From Desulfuromonas sp. (GTDB taxonomy: Bacteria > Desulfobacterota > Desulfuromonadia > Desulfuromonadales > Desulfuromonadaceae): 63,227 nucleotides of DNA. Numbering within the stretch: the first letter of the stretch is position 1; each line of letters begins with the position of its first letter. Shown one piece after another: positions 24,961-62,277 of this stretch. The notes under the pieces are model-generated. The model had not been told where the DNA came from. It saw only the letters and a list, made by a program, of their open reading frames with translations, and ran no database searches. Position numbers and translations under genes: made by a program. The DNA lies in the NCBI GenBank assembly GCA_021162745.1, contig JAGGYC010000123.1, forward strand, positions 1 to 63,227, given 5' to 3'.

Positions 24961-25998
24961 TTAGGGATGAATCCATACCTGGCTGAACCAATACCAGAAT
25001 TTTCCATCACGGCTTTGCGCCGTCAACGTATACTTATTCCGTCGTCCCTGTAGAGGACCTCGGGCAACTACTTCATAACAGCCGGGCAGACCGGCAACGC
25101 TTTGCACCGCCACCGCGTCCTGGCCCTGCACGTAGCAGCGCAGGCTGGACAAATTCAGCTCCTCACTATCGAGGGTAAATCGCAACACCGGCGGATCTTC
25201 TGCCCCGACAACCGGACCAGCGGGTGACACAACCGTCAGCGGCATCGCTTTCATAGCAAGTTTATTGCGAAAACCTTCAAGGGTGGCAAACGGTCCCCCC
25301 ATAGGAAAACGGGGGAGCTGATAACGCGACATCGTCGGGGTAATCACCCCTGATTGCTGTGCCAGCGCAGCAGTAAACCCTACCTGCTCCATCAAATTCA
25401 TCAAAGACGGCGAATATTCACCATAAGGATAGGCAAACAACTGTGGTTGAAAACCGAGTTCACGGACAAAGTTATCCTGAGCCTTGTTAAGATCAGCGGC
25501 GGCCCAGGCCATCCATCCATCAGGGTTGCGTTGCTCATGGGTGATGAAATAAGGATGGGATGCCGAGTGATTGCCGATCTCAATTCCTTCAGCCTGCAAG
25601 GTTCTCAACTCATTCCAGTCGAGATAGCTTTTAGCACCAACGGAACCAGTATTGACAAAAAGGGTCGCCCGATAACCATAGCGACGCAACAGCGGCATTG
25701 CTCCAGTCATAAAGCTTTGGTATGAATCATCCACGGTCAGGGCAACGCAGCGCTCAGGGAGGGGTTTCCCTGCGGCCATCGTCTCGACGATCTCCCCCAC
25801 AGTCAAAACCTGGTAATGGTGTTGTTTCAGATAAGCGAGCTGCTGTTCGAACACATCAACGGCGATATTGGTCGAAGGATAACGGGCATCACCGAAGCGG
25901 TGATAGACAAAAACCGTCGCCTGATCGGCACACCAACCACTGCCAGTGGCTAACAACCAGACGACTAACAACACAAAACAATAGCGTATACTAGTCAT
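24961..25998 (-). CDS. Polysaccharide deacetylase family protein (NodB-like)
   Basis: The 345-residue exported protein has a signal peptide (YCFVLLVVWLLATGSGWCA) and a NodB domain. The metal-binding motifs are ALTVDDSYQSF (the usual TFDDG appears as TVDDS) and GNHSASHPYF (HxxxH). The later segments FAYPYGEYSP and TAALAQQSG fit the family. The C-terminal 90 residues form a beta-rich extension. The ATG at 25998 is preferred over an upstream TTG because it directly precedes the signal peptide. It overlaps the end of the RelA/SpoT-like gene by 8 bases, suggesting one transcript. The substrate is unknown. Confidence 0.86.
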   Translation of the reverse strand: MTSIRYCFVLLVVWLLATGSGWCADQATVFVYHRFGDARYPSTNIAVDVFEQQLAYLKQHHYQVLTVGEIVETMAAGKPLPERCVALTVDDSYQSFMTGAMPLLRRYGYRATLFVNTGSVGAKSYLDWNELRTLQAEGIEIGNHSASHPYFITHEQRNPDGWMAWAAADLNKAQDNFVRELGFQPQLFAYPYGEYSPSLMNLMEQVGFTAALAQQSGVITPTMSRYQLPRFPMGGPFATLEGFRNKLAMKAMPLTVVSPAGPVVGAEDPPVLRFTLDSEELNLSSLRCYVQGQDAVAVQSVAGLPGCYEVVARGPLQGRRNKYTLTAQSRDGKFWYWFSQVWIHP

Positions 25999-27436
25999 TA
26001 TGATTATTCTCACGGACAATGGAACGCAGATAGCGGCGGATACTGTTCCGCGCTTTCGGTGTTACCGCCCAATCGAGCCACTTGGGAAGCACCCCGGGAA
26101 CATCAACGGTTTCAATGCGCACTTGATCGCCATCCATCAACGGTGTTTTCAATAATCGAGTCTGACCATTGATCCGGGCACGGAATGCATAGAGACCGAG
26201 TTTTTCATGAATATCGAACGCAAAATCAAGTGCACTGCTACCCTCAGGAAGCATGCGGGATTCACCATGCGGTGTGTACACCTGAATGGTTGCCGAAGCC
26301 AAACGCAGCCGTTCTGTGTCAAATACGGACTCCCCTTCGAGCAAACTGCGCATCAAGCCGGCGAAATTTTCTTTACGGAATTCAAAGCCGGGAGCCAACA
26401 CCCCGGCCTCGTTAAAACGTTCAAGCTTGCGGGTCGTAATCTGAATACGCAGACGATATTCACCGGCCTGAACGGTTGTTTTTAGAGCCTGATAACCGTG
26501 CTGTGACGGAGTATTGAGATGATCACGAAGCTTTCCGGTAATGGGCTGGTACATCCGGTGCAACAGGCCAAGAGCCATATAGGCATCCATTGTTGAATCC
26601 ACCAGCACTTCGAGGCTATAGAGTGCGGCAACCCCGCGACCGATACGTAACGCTCCTTCGACAGAAAAACTACGCCAATTGTCTTTGAGGGTGACGTTTA
26701 AACGATGGCGGCTGAACTCACTGGTGATGTCGGTGCGAACCCGGCGCAGAGCCGGCTCGGAGCGCTTATTGATTCCGGCCAGAACCCGACGGTAACGTGA
26801 AGCCCGACGTGGATAGAGGACGGTCAATGACAGTGATTCGAGTTCCTCAGCCACTCTCCCCATCCCCAGGTGACGGGCTAGAGGGATATATATTTTGCGT
26901 GTTTCTTCTGCGATCAACGCCTGCTTCTCAGGTTTAAGGGCATCAATCGTTCGTAGGTTATCAATCCGGTCCCACAATTTGAGGCAGAGGACACGGATAT
27001 CTTCGATAGCAACAAGAATGTGGTTGCGGTAGGTTTCCTCTTTGAGGGCTTCGCGGCTCAGCTCCGCATCTTCAACCTTGGTCAGACCTTTAACAAGCAG
27101 CGCGACCTCAGTACCAAAGGCTTCTTCAACCTCTTCAATGGTGACAGGGGTGTCTTCAACAACGTCATGCAGCAAGGCAGCAATGATCGACGAAAAGCCC
27201 ATCCAATAGCGTGCCGCCAGATGGGCAACACGTAGCGGATGAAACAGATAAGGCTCACCGGACTTACGTCGTTGTTCGGCGTGTGAGGTTTGAGCGAGAT
27301 CAAATCCACGATGCAGCATCTTGATACCATCATCAAGAGCATCTTCCGTCAGGCTCCCACCATGGTGGGTTACCAGAAGCTCTGTAATCTCCGTCATCAA
27401 TTTTTGAATTTCGCGCTCATGCTTCGCTGTTGTCAT
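25991..27436 (-). CDS. RelA/SpoT homologue with intact HD hydrolase and degenerate synthetase
   Basis: The 481-residue protein has an HD domain (about 30-200), a synthetase-like domain (about 230-350) and a TGS domain (about 395-460). It lacks the usual C-terminal ACT part. All recognised (p)ppGpp hydrolase residues are present: R57, H66, HD at 90-91, ED at 94-95, D156 and N160 (motifs SGEPYLFHP, LLHDVVEDT, LWDRIDNLRTI). In the synthetase part, the RxK motif is absent, the catalytic D is S274, the SLHT histidine is K319, and the EVQIRT glutamate is R330. It therefore looks like a dedicated ppGpp hydrolase. A second homologue at 54661-56829 has the opposite pattern. The start is supported by GGGGAC. 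Confidence 0.85.
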   Translation of the reverse strand: MTTAKHEREIQKLMTEITELLVTHHGGSLTEDALDDGIKMLHRGFDLAQTSHAEQRRKSGEPYLFHPLRVAHLAARYWMGFSSIIAALLHDVVEDTPVTIEEVEEAFGTEVALLVKGLTKVEDAELSREALKEETYRNHILVAIEDIRVLCLKLWDRIDNLRTIDALKPEKQALIAEETRKIYIPLARHLGMGRVAEELESLSLTVLYPRRASRYRRVLAGINKRSEPALRRVRTDITSEFSRHRLNVTLKDNWRSFSVEGALRIGRGVAALYSLEVLVDSTMDAYMALGLLHRMYQPITGKLRDHLNTPSQHGYQALKTTVQAGEYRLRIQITTRKLERFNEAGVLAPGFEFRKENFAGLMRSLLEGESVFDTERLRLASATIQVYTPHGESRMLPEGSSALDFAFDIHEKLGLYAFRARINGQTRLLKTPLMDGDQVRIETVDVPGVLPKWLDWAVTPKARNSIRRYLRSIVRENNHND

Positions 27437-27497: not shown

Positions 27498-27845
27498 CTA
27501 GCCCGGAGGCCAGGTCATTTTGCGGCCGGCCAAAAAGTGGTAATGGAGATGAGGGACAGCCTGCCCGCCATCGTCATTACAATTATTAACCAGGCGATAA
27601 CCACTCTCGGCCACATTCAGCTGGCGGGCTAAATCAATCGCCACCTGATGGATACGCATGAGGATGCAACTATCTTCCGCCACAACATCGTTCATCCCCG
27701 CAATATGCTTGCGTGGAATGATCAACACATGAACCGGAGCCTGCGGATCAATATCATTAAAGGCAACGACCAGCTCATCCTGATAGACAATCTGCGCCGG
27801 GATCTCCCCCGCTGCAATTTTACAAAAAAGACAATTGTCCGCCAT
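27498..27845 (-). CDS. HIT-family nucleotide hydrolase (HinT-like)
   Basis: This 115-residue histidine-triad protein has an N-terminal CLFCKIAAGEIPA with a CxxC, the substrate segment FNDIDPQAPVHVLIIPRKH, and the triad VPHLHYHFLAGR. Proteins of this group hydrolyse adenosine phosphoramidates and related AMP conjugates. It overlaps the end of the upstream YhaN-like ATPase gene by 26 bases and has a GGAGG site. It lies about 60 bases before the RelA/SpoT-like gene, which is on the same strand, so all are probably co-transcribed. Confidence 0.93.
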   Translation of the reverse strand: MADNCLFCKIAAGEIPAQIVYQDELVVAFNDIDPQAPVHVLIIPRKHIAGMNDVVAEDSCILMRIHQVAIDLARQLNVAESGYRLVNNCNDDGGQAVPHLHYHFLAGRKMTWPPG

Positions 27846-29976
27846 CTTCCGCCCCCTCCTTATTTTTAATCGTTGTTCGTGGTCGATGTGATCCCAGCGA
27901 GATCACATGCCAGCGCCTGCGTCCAGCTATCTTATGTAATCTTTCGTCGTGTGAAAACATGATTATCTGATGATCGCTACTTAACCGCTCTAAAGCGGCA
28001 ACCATTTCCTGTAAACGATCAGAATCTAGATTAACCAACGCGTCGTCAAGAAAAAATGGCAAATGCTCTGTGGGCGATAAAAAACGCGAAAGAGCCAACC
28101 GTATGGCCATACATGCCGCATCAATAGTCCCGCGGCTGAGCTGTTCCAATGCAACCCACTGTCCATTTTTACTTTTCAGCCGTATCCTGAAACCATCTTC
28201 AATTTTAACACCGACATATTTCCCCAGGGTTGCCTTACGTAAATACGTCGTGATCTCCAGTTCAAAGCGTTGCAAACTGCTGTGGCGAAACTCATCCAGT
28301 GAAGCAGTCAATACATCGACGGCACAGCGTAAAACCTGCTTGTGCTCCTCCAGTTCTTCTGCCCGTTGTTCGAGTTGACGACGGGTACGCCCTTCCTCTT
28401 CGCTGTCGGCAAGCCGTCCGAGTAAAACAGCCTCCTGCCGAACCAGCCCCAACAACAGGGTATCACGCTGGTGAATACTGGACATGAGATCTTCCAGCTT
28501 TTCCACCGCTGTCGGAAGTTCCTCTGGACGTAAATGCCTGTTCGAAGGTTCCTGCGCGACCGGTTGTTCAACAGGTTCCCCATGTTCTACCGGTGTAGAT
28601 TCCTCTGCCGACAACTGCCGACGAATCTCATTGAGTCGCTGCAGAGTCTCCTGATGCGTATCAAACATCTTCTGCATTCGAACCAATTCGACCGCGGAAG
28701 TTGAAATCCCCAGTTGTTCAAACTCATCATCGAGAGCCGCAAGATGGAGTTGTTCTTGTTCACGACGCTGTTCAATCGTGGCCATCTTTTGTTTCAGCTC
28801 GTCTTGAATAGCCTTTTTCTTTGTATAGTGCAGCCTGTAGACCGACCAGCTAACGATAAACAACACAGTCATGACAGCCGTTAGCGGGTAAAACAGTTCG
28901 TCGGCAAAAAAATGTGTCACCACGACCACGCATAACATAGCAGCACTCAGCAGCACAGGCCGCTTCCAGTCAGGCACAATAACCTTCTGCAAACGATCAC
29001 GTAACGGAATCATCTCCGACTGCAAGGCAATCATACCGTGACGCACATCATCCGCTTCAGTCAGCAAGCGCGGCAATGATTCGGGAATTTCAAGCGGCAA
29101 ACCAGCTTCCGTCAATTGCCGTTCAAGCTGCTGACACTCGTCGTTTAAAAAGGAGGAGGGTTCATCACTTTCTGTCGATGGAGTATCTTCCTGGTCAGCC
29201 CATAGCTGCTGAACCCAGTCGATGTACTCAATCCCCTGGGAATGCTCCTTGCGGTCATGCTCCAGTTCATTTTCCAACGCGGTAATCTGTTGGCGAACCA
29301 ATTCTAACTGGAGTAAAACATCTTGATTGTGCTGTTGCTTCTGATCAAGGTCCGCAAGCGACTCGGTAATCGCTTCCAATTCACGCGGCGACGTTGTCAA
29401 TTGCTGCCAGGGATCTTCGCTGGTGATCGCTGCGTAGTCATCATGGAGCGAAGCCAAGACCATTTCACTATCACACCGGGTAAAACCCGACAGTAACGTC
29501 CGTAAATATCGTTCAAAATCACCAGAGTCGGTGGGGAAATCCCCCTGGCCGACAAACAGAGAGGCGGAAAACAGGGTCTCATCGTTCAAACCAAGCAACT
29601 GGCGCAACGTCTGCCCATACTCCTGAGATTCAACAGTATGGCTCTCCTGAGAAACCACACCTGAAAAACGATATTGCTCTTGGTACATATCATCGGACTG
29701 GACCAATTTAACGTAATCACTGAGGATATCCCGCTCGATCCGAACATTACCATTCTGACTTTCGAACAATAATGCCGCATCACAACACTGGCTGCGCCCC
29801 CACGGCAAATAGCGTTTTTTATCCCGCATCCCAAAGAGAATGGCCGGAATCGAAGCCATCATGGTTGACTTGCCAGCCTCATTTGGCCCGATTACCAGAT
29901 TCATTCCCCGCCGAAAGTCATAATTTTTATCGGAAAAACGACCGAAATTTTTCAATTTCAAACTACGTAAGATCAT
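27820..29976 (-). CDS. YhaN-like SMC/Rad50-type ATPase with central membrane segments
   Basis: The 718-residue protein has a Walker A IGPNEAGKSTMMA (near residue 30), long coiled coils on both sides of a central hydrophobic region (about 338-385), an ABC signature EQLSRGTIDAA (near 620), and Walker B PFFLDDALVNLD (near 660). The central region includes two likely membrane helices (LLSAAMLCVVVVTHFF and LTAVMTVLFIVSW). The architecture matches the YhaN/AAA_27 group, partners of SbcD-like phosphoesterases. Its start overlaps the stop of the phosphoesterase gene (ATGA). ATPase residues look intact, although its partner is degenerate. A role in DNA end or membrane-associated repair is inferred. 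Confidence 0.85.
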   Translation of the reverse strand: MILRSLKLKNFGRFSDKNYDFRRGMNLVIGPNEAGKSTMMASIPAILFGMRDKKRYLPWGRSQCCDAALLFESQNGNVRIERDILSDYVKLVQSDDMYQEQYRFSGVVSQESHTVESQEYGQTLRQLLGLNDETLFSASLFVGQGDFPTDSGDFERYLRTLLSGFTRCDSEMVLASLHDDYAAITSEDPWQQLTTSPRELEAITESLADLDQKQQHNQDVLLQLELVRQQITALENELEHDRKEHSQGIEYIDWVQQLWADQEDTPSTESDEPSSFLNDECQQLERQLTEAGLPLEIPESLPRLLTEADDVRHGMIALQSEMIPLRDRLQKVIVPDWKRPVLLSAAMLCVVVVTHFFADELFYPLTAVMTVLFIVSWSVYRLHYTKKKAIQDELKQKMATIEQRREQEQLHLAALDDEFEQLGISTSAVELVRMQKMFDTHQETLQRLNEIRRQLSAEESTPVEHGEPVEQPVAQEPSNRHLRPEELPTAVEKLEDLMSSIHQRDTLLLGLVRQEAVLLGRLADSEEEGRTRRQLEQRAEELEEHKQVLRCAVDVLTASLDEFRHSSLQRFELEITTYLRKATLGKYVGVKIEDGFRIRLKSKNGQWVALEQLSRGTIDAACMAIRLALSRFLSPTEHLPFFLDDALVNLDSDRLQEMVAALERLSSDHQIIMFSHDERLHKIAGRRRWHVISLGSHRPRTTIKNKEGAEDGGQLSFL

Positions 29977-31100
29977 GACACCGCCTCACCAACAACGTTA
30001 AACCGTTGGAGTAATTCGCGTAACGCCATCTCATAGACCCCGCAGTGACTATCGCCACCGGCGGCAGCCAATTCAGTCATCCTTCGACATAAAATGCCGC
30101 GTACCGTATCTTCTTCTGCCATCTGTTGTACATAACGACTATTTAAAAAACTGGTCGAATCCGTTAACTCAAGAAGGAAAAACTCCGCAGCACACTGTTT
30201 CTGTAACAGCACCCAGTCATGGAGTTCTTCAATCGTCCCGGTTAACTTCACATCTAATGCCAATTCTCGATTTGCACGATCCAGCAACAAACAACTCAGT
30301 TCCGTAGCGGTATCGACACCGGTCACATCCAGTTCTTGCCGTTGAAATAGAACCGAATGACATTGAAGCTTGGTAAGCTGTACGCGACCATCATTGATAA
30401 CAACAAGAGCGCAACAACGAGATCCACAGTCGTTAAAGGAAAGCCCCTGCGGCGTACCGGGACAATAAGCGAGGATTTTCTCGCCATCGACGAGCTGGTC
30501 GGCAAAGCGGTTGCCGGTAATGACATAATCCAGATCCCAGGCTTGAATGGCCGGTCGCCAACAAACCAAATTTTCCTGATAGGGGTTTACCTGGTGCGCT
30601 TCGAGTTTATGACTATGCAAAACGCCAACATGCACACCGTCGCTATGGTGCCGCTGCATAAAACCAGTGGCACTCTCCCCGGCATCAATCTGCCATGGTA
30701 GGGTATAAAGGTTGAGTGTCTGTTCGTTTAGTTCAAATACCGCCGGTTCACCTTGAAGATAACGATCCTTAACAACCCATTCAGAAAAGTCTGGATGAGC
30801 ATAAACCGAATCGCTACCAAGCGGATGATCGTAACACCCGGGAAGTAGAGCGATATGGATCTGATGATCCCGTAGCCGTTGCAATTGCTGCAAGACCGGC
30901 CCACGATAGCTCTCATGCGGTGCATGGCTGGAAAACAGGTGGCCGGCAACAACGAATAACTGAACCTCGTGGGCGATAGCCAAATCGACTAAAGTCCCCA
31001 GGGTTGCCAGCTGCGCCTGCCGCAGAGCGTTCACCACAGCGCCGTCATAGGGCAGATCTGCTCCAATGTTAAGATCAGAGGTGTGAAGAACCTTAATCAT
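29973..31100 (-). CDS. YhaO/SbcD-like metallophosphoesterase with lost metal ligands
   Basis: The 375-residue protein has the fold order of SbcD/YhaO exonuclease subunits, but most metal ligands are replaced. Motif I DxH reads D9-L-N11; motif II GD reads G53-H54; motif III GNHD reads GCYD (88-91); motif V GHxH reads GNRF (196-199). Only D9 and the LHSH motif IV region (162-164) remain. The gene is adjacent to, and translationally coupled with, a YhaN-like ATPase, so it is probably still a structural partner. A start at the ATG at 31100 is favoured over an upstream TTG. It follows tlyA by 19 bases. Confidence 0.8.
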   Translation of the reverse strand: MIKVLHTSDLNIGADLPYDGAVVNALRQAQLATLGTLVDLAIAHEVQLFVVAGHLFSSHAPHESYRGPVLQQLQRLRDHQIHIALLPGCYDHPLGSDSVYAHPDFSEWVVKDRYLQGEPAVFELNEQTLNLYTLPWQIDAGESATGFMQRHHSDGVHVGVLHSHKLEAHQVNPYQENLVCWRPAIQAWDLDYVITGNRFADQLVDGEKILAYCPGTPQGLSFNDCGSRCCALVVINDGRVQLTKLQCHSVLFQRQELDVTGVDTATELSCLLLDRANRELALDVKLTGTIEELHDWVLLQKQCAAEFFLLELTDSTSFLNSRYVQQMAEEDTVRGILCRRMTELAAAGGDSHCGVYEMALRELLQRFNVVGEAVS

Positions 31101-31119
31101 GTCAGCCAACTTCCAGAAC

Positions 31120-54660: not shown

Positions 54661-56829
54661 CTAATTGCGTCGCTCACGCACCCGCTCAACACGGTACACC
54701 CCCTTAAGAGCCTTCAGTTCCTTCATCACCCGCTTAAGGTGCTCAACATTTTTCACCTCGACCTCAAATTCATTGAGGCCCTTGCGCCCCTGCGAAGTGT
54801 GTACTCTTGCGCTGGTAATATTGGCCTCACACCTGGTGATACATGCCGTAATCTCAGCCAACACCCCTTTTTGATCATGGCAGTGGACGTTGATCCGAAC
54901 ACTGCGTGAGGTTGTTGTACTCAAATCCCATTCGACATCCACGCGACGTTCTGGATCCATCTCCAGCAGATGAGGACAATCGGCCGCATGCACGGTAATG
55001 CCGTGTCCACGAGTGATAAAACCAACAATATCATCACCCGGCAAGGGATTACAACACTTAGCAAAGCGCACCAGCACATCGTCAATCCCCTGAATACGGA
55101 TCGCACTGCGCGAAGGCTTCTTGCGGATCTTATCGATCACTCGACCCAAACTGGGCAGTTTGGAACGCTGCGTACGCAATTGATCCGCAGGAACAACCCG
55201 CCCGATCACCTGACCAACGGACAATTTGCCATAACCTACCGCCGCAAGCAAATCATCAACTTCCTTGAAACCAAGATCCTTGGCAGCTTCGAGCATGATC
55301 GAAGCTGCCAATGTTTTATTCAGGCTCTTGCCGTACTTACGCAGCTCTTTTTCCAACAACCCATGTGCCAGCTCAACACTTTTTTCCCGTTCCTGGGTTT
55401 TAACCCAATGCCGGATACGGTTACGTGCCTTGGAGGTTTTAACCAGCTTCAACCAATCCTTGCTCGGTGTCTGGTTCGGTGATGTCACCACTTCGACAAC
55501 ATCGCCATTGTGCAGTTCTGTTTTAAGCGAGATCAGTTTGTTGTTAACCTTGGCCCCGACACAGCGATGACCAAGGTCACCGTGGATCGCATAGGCAAAA
55601 TCGATCGGAGTTGCCCCTTTAGGCAACTCCCGCACATGACCCTGCGGCGTAAAGACATACACCTCTTCTGGAAACAGATCAACATGAGGGTCATTGACCA
55701 CTTCCAGCGAATCATCCATCTCCCGTTGCCACTCCACCATGTGGCGCAACCAACTGAAACGACCATCATCGCCATTATTACCGGCAGTCTTCCCCTCTTT
55801 ATACATCCAGTGAGCCGCAATGCCCTCTTCAGCAATCCGGTGCATCTCCTCGGTTCGGATCTGGACTTCCATCCGCTTGCCATAGGGTCCGATCACAGAG
55901 GTATGCAGCGATTGATACATATTGGCCTTGGGCATGGCAATAAAATCTTTAAATCGGCTGGCAATCGGCTTCCACTCCGAATGGACAATTCCAAGAGCGG
56001 CGTAACAATCACGAACCGATTTGACAATAATGCGAAAAGCAATCAGGTCATACATCTGATCAACATCAATATTCTGACGCTGAATTTTACGATAGATTGA
56101 GTAGAGGTGCTTGGAGCGACCTGAGACTTCAGCTACGATCCCCTGTTTCTCCAAGATCGCCTGAATCTCCTCTTTGACGCGCTGTACATATTGATCACAG
56201 GCATCGGTCTTAAACGCCATGACCTTCTGATTGAGTTCGTTGTATTCATCAGGGTGCAGATGCTTGAACGACAGGTCTTCGAGCTGGCTCTTCATCCAGC
56301 TGATACCCAGCCGATTGGCCAATGGGACATAAACATCCATTGTCTCACGGGCAATACGCGACTGTTGCTGCTGAGGACGGCAGTGAAGGTTCTGCATGAC
56401 ATGCAGACGATCAGCGAGCTTTATCAGGATAATGCGAAAATCGCGGGCAATGGCCAGCAGCATCTTACGAAAGCTCTCGGTTTGACGTTCTTCACCACGC
56501 TGAAAGACAATGCTATTGATCCGGGTCAAGCCTTCAACCAGCATAACCACCTGATCACCGAGCTGTACCTTTAATTCATCGGCTGAAACCAACTGTTTTT
56601 GCAGGACGTCATGCACCAAGCCGGCAGCAATGGTCGTTACATCCATCTTCAGACGGATTAACAATTCAGCAACGGCAACAGGATGACTAAAGGAGGGTTC
56701 TTCACCACAGGGGAGGAGTAAATCCTGATGAACCTGCTCACCAAAGCGGTAAGCACGCCGGATCAGATCATGATCAGCTTCAGCAAGGTATCCGCTGACA
56801 GCGTTAAGAAGCTCTTCGAGTGACTTCAA
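54661..56829 (-). CDS. relA: RelA/SpoT homologue with intact synthetase and degenerate HD hydrolase
   Basis: The 722-residue protein has the full Rel architecture: HD domain (about 20-190), synthetase (about 230-350), TGS (about 390-455), zinc-finger-like and ACT C-terminus (to 722). The synthetase residues are intact: R239, K241 (GRSKH), D262 (YDLIAFRI), H310 (SLHT), E322 (EVQIRT). In the HD domain, H49 and the HD pair 73-74 remain, but the R of the KSGEPY region is P40, the ED pair is L76-Q77 (LVHDVLQKQ), and the LADRLHN asparagine is V145. It is therefore probably a ppGpp synthetase that cannot hydrolyse. It sits at the classical gmk-rpoZ-rel locus. Confidence 0.92.
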   Translation of the reverse strand: MKSLEELLNAVSGYLAEADHDLIRRAYRFGEQVHQDLLLPCGEEPSFSHPVAVAELLIRLKMDVTTIAAGLVHDVLQKQLVSADELKVQLGDQVVMLVEGLTRINSIVFQRGEERQTESFRKMLLAIARDFRIILIKLADRLHVMQNLHCRPQQQQSRIARETMDVYVPLANRLGISWMKSQLEDLSFKHLHPDEYNELNQKVMAFKTDACDQYVQRVKEEIQAILEKQGIVAEVSGRSKHLYSIYRKIQRQNIDVDQMYDLIAFRIIVKSVRDCYAALGIVHSEWKPIASRFKDFIAMPKANMYQSLHTSVIGPYGKRMEVQIRTEEMHRIAEEGIAAHWMYKEGKTAGNNGDDGRFSWLRHMVEWQREMDDSLEVVNDPHVDLFPEEVYVFTPQGHVRELPKGATPIDFAYAIHGDLGHRCVGAKVNNKLISLKTELHNGDVVEVVTSPNQTPSKDWLKLVKTSKARNRIRHWVKTQEREKSVELAHGLLEKELRKYGKSLNKTLAASIMLEAAKDLGFKEVDDLLAAVGYGKLSVGQVIGRVVPADQLRTQRSKLPSLGRVIDKIRKKPSRSAIRIQGIDDVLVRFAKCCNPLPGDDIVGFITRGHGITVHAADCPHLLEMDPERRVDVEWDLSTTTSRSVRINVHCHDQKGVLAEITACITRCEANITSARVHTSQGRKGLNEFEVEVKNVEHLKRVMKELKALKGVYRVERVRERRN

Positions 56830-57016: not shown

Positions 57017-57226
57017 TTAGTGCGTACGCGTATCCGGCGCTTCGAACTCAACCTTACCCGCGGCAATTTCACGTAGCGCCTGAACAACTTTTTTGTTGCC
57101 GGACACGTTTTCAATCATCGGCTTTGCGCCACGATACAGCTGCTTGGCGCGTTTGGCCGCAACCATAGCCAGCAAAAAACGATTGGAAATTTGCTCTAAA
57201 CAATCTTCAACAGTAACGCGTGCCAT
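57017..57226 (-). CDS. rpoZ: RNA polymerase omega subunit
   Basis: The 69-residue protein starts [19 protein letters not shown] and continues [13 protein letters not shown], which is the omega signature. It helps assemble RNA polymerase and in many bacteria forms part of the ppGpp site. It lies between gmk and relA as in many proteobacteria. The ATG at 57226 follows CAGGAGTATCAAGGT. Confidence 0.95.
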
Positions 57227-57272: not shown

Positions 57273-57881
57273 CTATGGGTTCAACATCTCTTCAATGCTG
57301 GGAAAAACAAACCGACTGCGACACATCTCCGCCTGCATGATAGCTATCAGCTGTGCTGCAGCCTCATCAACGTTGTCATTGACAACAATATAATCATACC
57401 AGCGGGCTTGCTGCAACTCACCACGGGCATTTTCAATGCGTCGAATAATAACGTCATCGCTGTCCGTCGCGCGGCCTCGCAAACGCCGTTCCAACTCATC
57501 CAGACTGGGTGGCGCAATAAAGATAAACACCGCTTCGTCTGCGCATTTCTTTAACTGGGCTGCGCCCTGAAAATCGATATCCAGCAACACATGCTGACCA
57601 TCATCTCCAGCCTGACGCAAGGTTTGCAACGCCGTTCCGTAATAATTATCATGCACCTGAGCCCACTCGACAAATGCATCAGCAGCAATCATCTCACGAA
57701 ACCGCTCAACATCGACAAAATGGTAATCAATACCATCAATCTCACCTTGCCGCATAGGCCGCGTCGTAAAAGAAACAGATTGCCTTAATTTGGGGGAAAA
57801 GTCAATAATCTGCTTACACAGTGTCGTCTTACCGGCCCCTGAAGGCGCAGAGATGACAAACAAAATTCCTTGGCGTTGCAT
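57273..57881 (-). CDS. gmk: Guanylate kinase
   Basis: The 202-residue enzyme phosphorylates GMP. Walker A is VISAPSGAGKTTLCKQ, and the GMP-binding segments are SVSFTTRPMRQGEIDGIDYHF and AQVHDNYYGT. The lid is RLRGRATDSDDVIIRR. It starts 15 bases after yicC and precedes rpoZ. Confidence 0.96.
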   Translation of the reverse strand: MQRQGILFVISAPSGAGKTTLCKQIIDFSPKLRQSVSFTTRPMRQGEIDGIDYHFVDVERFREMIAADAFVEWAQVHDNYYGTALQTLRQAGDDGQHVLLDIDFQGAAQLKKCADEAVFIFIAPPSLDELERRLRGRATDSDDVIIRRIENARGELQQARWYDYIVVNDNVDEAAAQLIAIMQAEMCRSRFVFPSIEEMLNP

Positions 57882-61498: not shown

Positions 61499-62206
61499 TC
61501 ACAGGATAAGAGCACCCGTGCGAGATCCTGAATCTGCGTCACACATTGCTTGAATCTCGTCAAGCTGACCCGACTGGATGAGAACAAAACGTACTCCGAC
61601 ACCGGGCACATTCATCGATTTCCCCCATTCCTGGCACCATCTCACCTCGACCAGAATCGGAGTTTTGTCCATCAATTCAAGAAAACGAACCCACAACCGT
61701 TCCCCCACGGCAATATTCTGCGACATAAACAGAAAACAGCCCCCTTCCGAAAGATCCATGGTCACGGTTTTTTGTGACACCTCTTCAGACATCTGGTCAT
61801 GGAGTGAATAGAGGACATTACAGTGAATGTGCCTGCGTTGCCGCATCCGCAGGCAACGCGGAACAAAAGGGGCACAATAGGTGGAAATGAACGACTTGAT
61901 GGAGATGTTCTGGCCGGGACCCGCTCCGGTCATCAGGGTGCGGATATCACCCGTCGCCGGATCCCAGCGCAAGCGTAACGATGGGTAGACTTCCAACAGT
62001 TCCTTGATCACTTCACGATCAAACGGGGTGGCACGGATTGAGCTGACGATATCGATCAGGACGCCACTACACGGAATCGTTGTCGACTGCTTGAAAAACT
62101 CCTCAAAGCTGGAAACCACCGCACACATGACACCTTGATCGGGAAGTGCCTGCAGGTAGCGTTTCTGTAGTTCCTGATCATGGGCATATAACAGCAACTT
62201 CAACAT
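61499..62206 (-). CDS. PilZ-domain protein with receiver-like N-terminus
   Basis: The 235-residue protein has an N-terminal alpha/beta domain (about 1-105) resembling a receiver fold: LKLLLYAHDQELQKRYLQAL, then SGVLIDIVSSI. The acidic pocket after beta 1 is not clearly conserved. The PilZ domain (about 115-225) has RMRQRRHIHCNV and TMDLSEGGCFLF (DxSxxG), so c-di-GMP binding is likely. The ATG at 62206 follows AAGGTG; a GTG lies 12 bases upstream. It is upstream of glpK with a gap of about 160 bases. The role is unknown. Confidence 0.8.
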   Translation of the reverse strand: MLKLLLYAHDQELQKRYLQALPDQGVMCAVVSSFEEFFKQSTTIPCSGVLIDIVSSIRATPFDREVIKELLEVYPSLRLRWDPATGDIRTLMTGAGPGQNISIKSFISTYCAPFVPRCLRMRQRRHIHCNVLYSLHDQMSEEVSQKTVTMDLSEGGCFLFMSQNIAVGERLWVRFLELMDKTPILVEVRWCQEWGKSMNVPGVGVRFVLIQSGQLDEIQAMCDADSGSRTGALIL

Positions 62207-62277
62207 CGGCACAATCACCTTTTATGAACGACATCCTGTATTTTTACAGAATTGAAAGGGATAAATACGGACAAGGT

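Follow-up and report, generated by a model that had tools for sequence, protein, structure and literature searches.

Predicted division of ppGpp synthesis and hydrolysis between Rel and a second, order-wide RSH protein in Desulfuromonadales

The two RSH genes of the window

The stretch of Desulfuromonas sp. DNA analyzed here (63,227 nucleotides of contig JAGGYC010000123.1, hereafter the window) contains two genes of the RSH superfamily, both of which gave HD_4 and/or RelA_SpoT matches above the family cut-off. The first one, Rel, is an open reading frame with a TTG start (54661..56829, minus strand, 722 amino acids), located downstream of gmk (guanylate kinase, 57273..57881, minus strand, PF00625) and of its upstream neighbour rpoZ (RNA polymerase omega, 57017..57226, minus strand, PF01192). 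On the same strand it displays matches to the HD_4 (56302..56754), RelA_SpoT synthetase (55789..56121), TGS (55483..55662, residues 390–449), AH/RIS and ACT (54682..54909, residues 641–716) domains. This full HD-SYN-TGS-AH/RIS-ACT architecture, like the position of the protein in the Rel tree, is that of a bifunctional Rel[HS]. The second one, B (25991..27436, minus strand, 481 amino acids), is about 30% identical to Rel and is formed by an HD domain (26861..27301, minus strand), a pseudo-synthetase region with a weak match to the RelA_SpoT model (26396..26623, minus strand) and a TGS domain, with no domain match beyond it (AH/RIS and ACT unmatched). The structure models of Rel and B showed the expected folds (mean pLDDT 77 and 84), with B. 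subtilis Rel (6yxa) as the top match for both. The genome of origin (2.9 Mb, 163 contigs, 97% complete) gave no further match to RelA_SpoT or HD_4, the count of RelA/SpoT homologues found being two. Elsewhere in the window, a protein with a C-terminal PilZ domain (61499-62218) is a possible c-di-GMP receptor.

The residue states of Rel were read from an alignment that comprised 129 other Rel loci together with the SpoT and RelA of E. coli. The synthetase is canonical (R238, K240, D261, H309, E321). In the hydrolase domain, the Mn ligands H49, H73, D74 and D140 are retained, while five catalytic or substrate residues are replaced. In what we take to be the RelSeq numbers of the motif residues, the replacements are R44 by L39, Y50 by S46, E81 by Q77, D82 by K78 and N148 by V144, so Rel lacks every one of the five residues by which the hydrolase of a bifunctional Rel[HS] was recognized. 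The codons Q77-K78, located where HDVxEDT has its catalytic Glu-Asp pair, lie at 56596..56601 on the minus strand, as computed from the ORF start. A previous sequence-only reading of this locus had claimed that the gene keeps all its synthetase residues and has lost essential hydrolase ones. It was correct about the former, although its numbers were one too high. The hydrolase losses it named are real but were also placed one position off (L76-Q77, P40 and V145 instead of Q77-K78, L39 and V144), and the fifth, the loop Tyr that is now S46, was missed.

The same losses were obtained in a separate alignment with 15 Rels from other phyla, in which the R39, Y46, E77, D78 and N144 columns are at least 90% conserved and the window protein deviates. 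In the Rels of sister orders, the nine hydrolase residues scored were canonical in 40 of 40 reads (sets of 10 and 30 with five genomes in both, i.e., 35 genomes), versus five changed in the window Rel, so these losses cannot be ascribed to chance. In A. baumannii SpoT, mutation to Ala of R45, Y51, E82, D83 or N147 abolished hydrolysis in each case (PMC9974481), and the alignment reads these as the same five sites that are replaced in the window Rel.

Concerning B, the losses are the reverse ones, as the sequence-only reading had advanced. The nine scored hydrolase residues are all canonical (R57, Y63, H66, H90, D91, E94, D95, D156, N160), while the pseudo-synthetase carries Lys at H312, Arg at E323 and Thr at R327; the R241, K243 and D264 positions are also changed, in a part where the alignment is less sure. 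The pattern is general among 107 B sequences, a set in which some genomes are counted twice and at least 91 sequences are distinct. Their hydrolase site is fully canonical in 97, bears Y50F in seven and Y50C in two from a single genome, and is cut off in one; one genome with Y50F in B, G016, has a degenerate Rel as well. As for the synthetase, E323 and K243 are Arg in 107/107, R327 is kept as Arg in none, H312 is changed in 106, and the D264 column, where the alignment is less certain, is devoid of Asp. In genome G036, with one contig and a degenerate Rel, B is split in two frames near TGS with the HD part open (C1:1263540-1264990, L241), which may be a real truncation or a sequencing error.

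The activity of A. baumannii SpoT is controlled by its Core and C-terminal domains, and parts of the C-terminal region stimulate hydrolysis (PMC9974481). With nothing recognizable after TGS, B would not be controllable in this manner, and it probably acts as a basal hydrolase or as one under a different control. The lack of such a stimulating region could also mean that B acts on another nucleotide (ppApp, pGpp, NADPH), ppGpp being removed by non-RSH enzymes such as the Nudix hydrolases, and the structure matches of B do include HD_4-type proteins whose substrates or ligands are different, such as a ppApp hydrolase. However, the nine canonical residues of B, its structural similarity to Rel and SpoT, which rank first among the full-length matches, and the degeneration of B and Rel in opposite domains make this explanation improbable in comparison with a ppGpp hydrolase.

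Distribution, neighbourhood and origin of B

A first sample, made up of the own genome and 39 relatives, had B in 40 of 40 genomes, and a B-level match was present in 125 of 136 Desulfuromonadales genomes, the own one included. Malonomonas rubra DSM 5091 and Geothermobacter hydrogeniphilus are among the named carriers. The eleven misses (G102, G120, G143, G146, G155, G157, G163, G164, G169, G171 and G180) are what assemblies of this kind give, since a Rel match above B's own level was absent from 15 of the same 136 genomes, one of which, G004, does carry a short stretch of Rel where a contig ends. G146 contains a 272-residue frame with a canonical-looking HD_4 site (contig C96, L381), a possible small alarmone hydrolase. 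Outside the order, B was found in 0/57 sister-order genomes of the class sample and in 0/195 genomes of the phylum sample, four of which are also among the 57. In the phylum sample, the best non-order match was a Rel-sized frame with 260 bits, while B scored at least 650 bits in the three genomes of the order included there; some of the non-order Rel-sized frames matched by B are other second RSHs. The possibility that B is a class-level feature was rejected in view of the 0/57 result.

In the window, B is preceded by genes for a HIT-domain protein (27498..27845, minus strand, PF01230) and an SMC/AAA-type ATPase (27820..29976, minus strand, PF13476), and followed by a polysaccharide deacetylase-like protein (24961..26019, minus strand, PF01522). 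The neighbourhood was examined in the 17 of the 37 named B loci that exceed 15 kb. All 17 had a HIT-domain gene near B, and in 16 this gene was upstream of B, at a distance of no more than about 1.1 kb, with the same orientation; the ATPase was near B in 13 and the deacetylase-like gene after B in 11. Adjoining the ATPase in the window there is a 378-residue protein (29973-31109) with no Pfam match at 1e-5, which looks SbcD-like by eye.

The conserved gene neighbourhood, together with the order-wide distribution, suggests that B is a single family, probably derived by vertical inheritance from one gene ancestral to Desulfuromonadales. In a tree concerned with the origin of B (five degenerate-HD rows left out, no Bacillus RshC, long branches present), B was not nested within the Desulfuromonadales Rels. 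It formed its own clade with a long stem, so its origin as a recent duplicate of the Rel of the order is unsupported; a tree joining B and the order Rels in one clade was only mildly rejected (p 0.039).

Degeneration of the Rel hydrolase domain in the order

The 130 Rel rows aligned (129 loci and the window) comprise 112 scored order rows, 10 outgroup rows, all canonical, and eight that were dropped for missing a scored HD residue or most of the rest (L053, L167, L190, L193, L201, L202, L206 and L207). Among the dropped rows, L201 and L202, from family f4, look degenerate, and the frames of L167 and L206 are broken by a stop or a frame change. The hydrolase was canonical in 38 of the 112 order Rels, had one change in three, and at least two of the nine residues changed in 71. 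D82 was the residue most often affected among the 71 degenerate rows (68), followed by N148 (54) and E81 (49), and metal ligands were changed as well (D78 in 19, D144 in 18). Degenerate rows occur in families f1, f2, f3, f4, f5, f7, f8, f13, f19 and f21, and at least one canonical row in each family from f8 to f20 plus f2, f5 and f6. The window's family, f1, is degenerate in 11 of 11 rows. The replacement residues vary by family, with, for example, QK, ER, QQ or EN at E81-D82; the Rel of Malonomonas rubra (G104, L169) has R44N, D82E and N148D. The sequence-only reading had expected a single bifunctional Rel in this group, from which the window would depart. This does not hold, as B is order-wide and other members have a canonical Rel together with B. 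Its proposal that ppGpp synthesis and removal are split over two proteins agrees with the residues and with the two RSHs counted in the genome, but the split is not peculiar to a single strain.

On a Rel tree constructed without the HD domain, the states change a minimum of 8 times (122 rows) or 9 times (76 rows chosen from the 122, with a careful search), counts which carry no direction. Canonical and degenerate rows share supported clades in f2 (100/98), f19 (100/99), f5 (100/99) and f13 (100/100); counting one loss for each of these mixed clades, and one for the rest, gives about five losses. The number is uncertain, given the weak support for the deep nodes that separate several of the degenerate families.

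The relaxation affects specifically the HD domain. In pairs with a SYN identity of 0.65–0.70, which are not independent of each other, the mean HD identity was 0.72 for 257 canonical pairs versus 0.47 for 988 degenerate pairs, while the C-terminal identity was similar (0.55 versus 0.52), which indicates that constraint was lifted from HD. Less weight was given to dN/dS, a weak support because dS was undefined in many pairs and the pairs were hand-picked: the ratio of HD dN to SYN dN was at least 1.5 in 8 of 12 degenerate pairs and 0.7–1.4 in the other four, versus 0.5–1.1 in five canonical pairs. Wherever dS could be estimated, HD dN was far below it, so the degenerate HD domain still does something and the constraint is not abolished. 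In E. coli RelA, the pseudo-hydrolase is kept as a regulatory scaffold (PMC8012599), and the remaining constraint of the degenerate Rels fits, by analogy, a similar retention. As a separate observation, Geothermobacter hydrogeniphilus (G046; L098/L254) has a canonical Rel and Y50C in B, while its sister G037 (L057) has E81A in Rel and a canonical B; these reciprocal single changes are suggestive, no more.

It may be asked whether Rel could retain a useful hydrolase activity, with the site remodelled around the Mn ligands. These are kept in the 11 scored f1 rows and the HD part of the window Rel model has a pLDDT of 84–95 for residues 11–100, so that some hydrolysis, weak or of an altered kind, can be imagined. 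Nevertheless, all five residues that are individually essential in A. baumannii SpoT are replaced, with Gln for Glu and Lys for Asp at the catalytic pair, the HD identity has fallen in the degenerate lineages, and in other families of the order the metal ligands are lost too, all of which makes a remodelled hydrolase improbable. It is also improbable that the pattern goes back to one loss in an ancestor, or to an artefact of alignment or assembly, rather than to repeated losses, because, even though several degenerate families adjoin at weak nodes, there are canonical sisters inside the well supported clades of f2, f19, f5 and f13, the replacements differ by family, and canonical Rels occur on many branches and in all the outgroup rows.

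Concerning the dependence of a degenerate Rel on a second hydrolase, B is present in 66 of the 71 genomes whose Rel is degenerate and in 35 of the 38 whose Rel is canonical, so a correlation indicating dependence is absent within the order. Such an equal presence is expected if B came first, and by itself it is no evidence of dependence. The degenerate Rels without detected B (G102, G155, G157, G164 and G169) are all from f8 assemblies of 120–470 contigs, although G102 is rated 100% complete; in G157 and G155 there is an additional HD_4 fragment or a small HD_4 frame, which G102, G164 and G169 lack.

In the sister orders, where B is absent, Rel was canonical in the 30 loci read. These loci are not a random sample: of 58 genomes searched, 57 gave a match, and the loci with the best SYN matches were taken. 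A control through the phylum covered 60 regions of 59 genomes and was enriched for genomes without a strong match, so its 47 canonical regions, one of them a second copy of G228, do not represent a rate. The other regions were three unreadable ones (L294, L308 and L336), a degenerate extra copy in G249, whose Rel is canonical, and those of nine genomes with degenerate Rel (G206, G228, G243, G263, G278, G295, G306, G213 and G285), to which G250 was later added; these degenerate Rels fall in families f39, f61, f46 and f69. The extra frame of G249 (contig C79, L380) has 504 residues, a degenerate HD and mostly canonical synthetase motifs, besides the intact Rel of that genome. L336, from the 1.1-Mb, one-contig genome G303, is a 581-residue Rel frame with no alignable HD, which may be a Rel without that domain or reflect a broken frame.

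The ten control genomes with degenerate Rel contain, without exception, a second long RSH in which the nine hydrolase residues are canonical and the synthetase motifs altered. These are open frames of 683–840 residues, of at least two types by motif, which to judge by scores and length differ from B. The idea that a degenerate Rel occurs solely with B was thereby rejected, and the reciprocal design arose with different second enzymes. Two further types of long RSH are represented among them, one in L370-L376 (G295, G278, G306, G206, G263, G243 and G228, in this order) and another in L377-L379 (G285, G213 and G250).

That B would be essential while Rel is active, as proposed in the sequence-only reading, is a good prediction, and the co-occurrence of B with degenerate Rel (the five genomes failing to show it being fragmented assemblies) fits it. 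It is not a certainty, since in Porphyromonas gingivalis the predicted sole RSH hydrolase, RshB, could be deleted with viability (PMC6994654).

A two-enzyme stringent response and its relation to known systems

Considering all the evidence, it is very probable that a synthetase-only Rel and an ancestral hydrolase B make up a RelA/SpoT-like split that occurred repeatedly outside the Gammaproteobacteria. Rel would be a ribosome-associated, starvation-activated ppGpp synthetase, its HD domain being folded but catalytically dead, and B would be a dedicated ppGpp hydrolase, C-terminally shortened and with a dead pseudo-synthetase; these activities, and the activation of Rel by ribosomes, are predictions from sequence. 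In characterized Rel homologues, the TGS, AH/RIS and ACT domains serve tRNA and ribosome binding. Their retention in the window Rel makes it reasonable to interpret that it makes ppGpp on starved ribosomes, and it would be unable to remove it. As to how the split may have arisen, the ancestor of Desulfuromonadales would have had B alongside a bifunctional Rel, and the redundancy provided by B could have relaxed selection on the Rel hydrolase, leading to independent losses in several families, including that of the window. It is the order of events that suggests that B permitted these losses.

The RelA/SpoT-like split is in itself of a known kind; what matters here is the replicated, tree-mapped set of Rel losses and the dedicated hydrolase family. 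RSHs are known to divide the two tasks between them in beta- and gammaproteobacteria, completely so in Moraxellaceae (PMC9974481), and partially in Bacteroidetes (PMC6994654). The Moraxellaceae pair formed by RelA[hS] and SpoT[Hs] (A. baumannii SpoT, PDB 7qpr) shows the same full reciprocal split, with pseudo-HD and pseudo-SYNTH domains (PMC9974481). However, both of its members come from the beta/gammaproteobacterial duplication of Rel and its hydrolase is full length, whereas B, which fits SpoT[Hs] by residue state, ends after TGS and forms its own clade, with E. coli SpoT placed elsewhere. By residue state also, the window Rel is like the beta/gammaproteobacterial RelA[hS]. Its descent from the RelA side is opposed by its kinship with Desulfuromonadales Rels (52–82% identity) and by its retention of Mn ligands that E. 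coli RelA lacks, to be read with trees that did not include E. coli RelA. The rpoZ locus of E. coli contains SpoT, while here it contains a predicted synthetase-only Rel with the hydrolase elsewhere, i.e., a mirror image.

The pair of Rel and RshB in Porphyromonas and Bacteroides is likewise non-gammaproteobacterial, with a Rel predicted to be synthetase-only and a second RSH that hydrolyses (PMC6994654). Unlike B, with its synthetase predicted to be dead, RshB has been described with both activities (PMC6994654), and it nests within the Bacteroidetes Rels (PMC3153485), while B does not within those of Desulfuromonadales. The small alarmone hydrolases (RelH, MESH1), which are among the weaker structure matches of B, are also dedicated to HD_4 hydrolysis, but they consist of HD alone, while B retains in addition a pseudo-SYN and a TGS domain.

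Genome G016, which we take to be Pelobacter carbinolicus, has E81Q, D82Q, D144E and N148D in Rel, and its second RSH is a B with Y50F. In the 2011 classification by Atkinson, the brackets denote the domains present, with lower case for the dead domain of RelA; delta Rel was labelled Rel[HS], and the second copy of P. carbinolicus, a second long RSH in Desulfuromonadales as B is, was labelled RshD[HS], with both letters capitalized and an unsupported placement, grouped with other deltaproteobacterial second copies (PMC3153485). The passages of that article considered here make no mention of a dead RshD synthetase or a dead Rel hydrolase in this group (PMC3153485). The RshD of P. carbinolicus is probably B and, with the residue states of G016, Rel[hS] and RshD[Hs] would be the appropriate labels. 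The two types of second RSH in L370-L379 may cover other 'RshD' proteins. Among the top results of a literature search, whose scope did not extend to subscription papers and supplements, no title described this split in Desulfuromonadales.

Going further, it seems to us somewhat likely, with clearly less assurance than for the split itself, that the ancestral B acted as an evolutionary ratchet. The Rel hydrolase would have been lost at least five, and probably at least eight, times, leaving a two-enzyme stringent response across much of the order, as well as in at least two further family groups of the phylum with other second enzymes, and uncoupling hydrolysis from the ribosome-sensing domains.

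A bifunctional Rel is usually seen as two opposed activities held in one protein that switches between them. The occurrence in one order of canonical and degenerate Rels, with B nearly everywhere, provides a natural replicated experiment on the keeping or breaking of that coupling. It argues against calling every deltaproteobacterial Rel bifunctional and bears on the design of ppGpp work in Desulfuromonadales, where the split makes clean predictions on which genes would be deletable.
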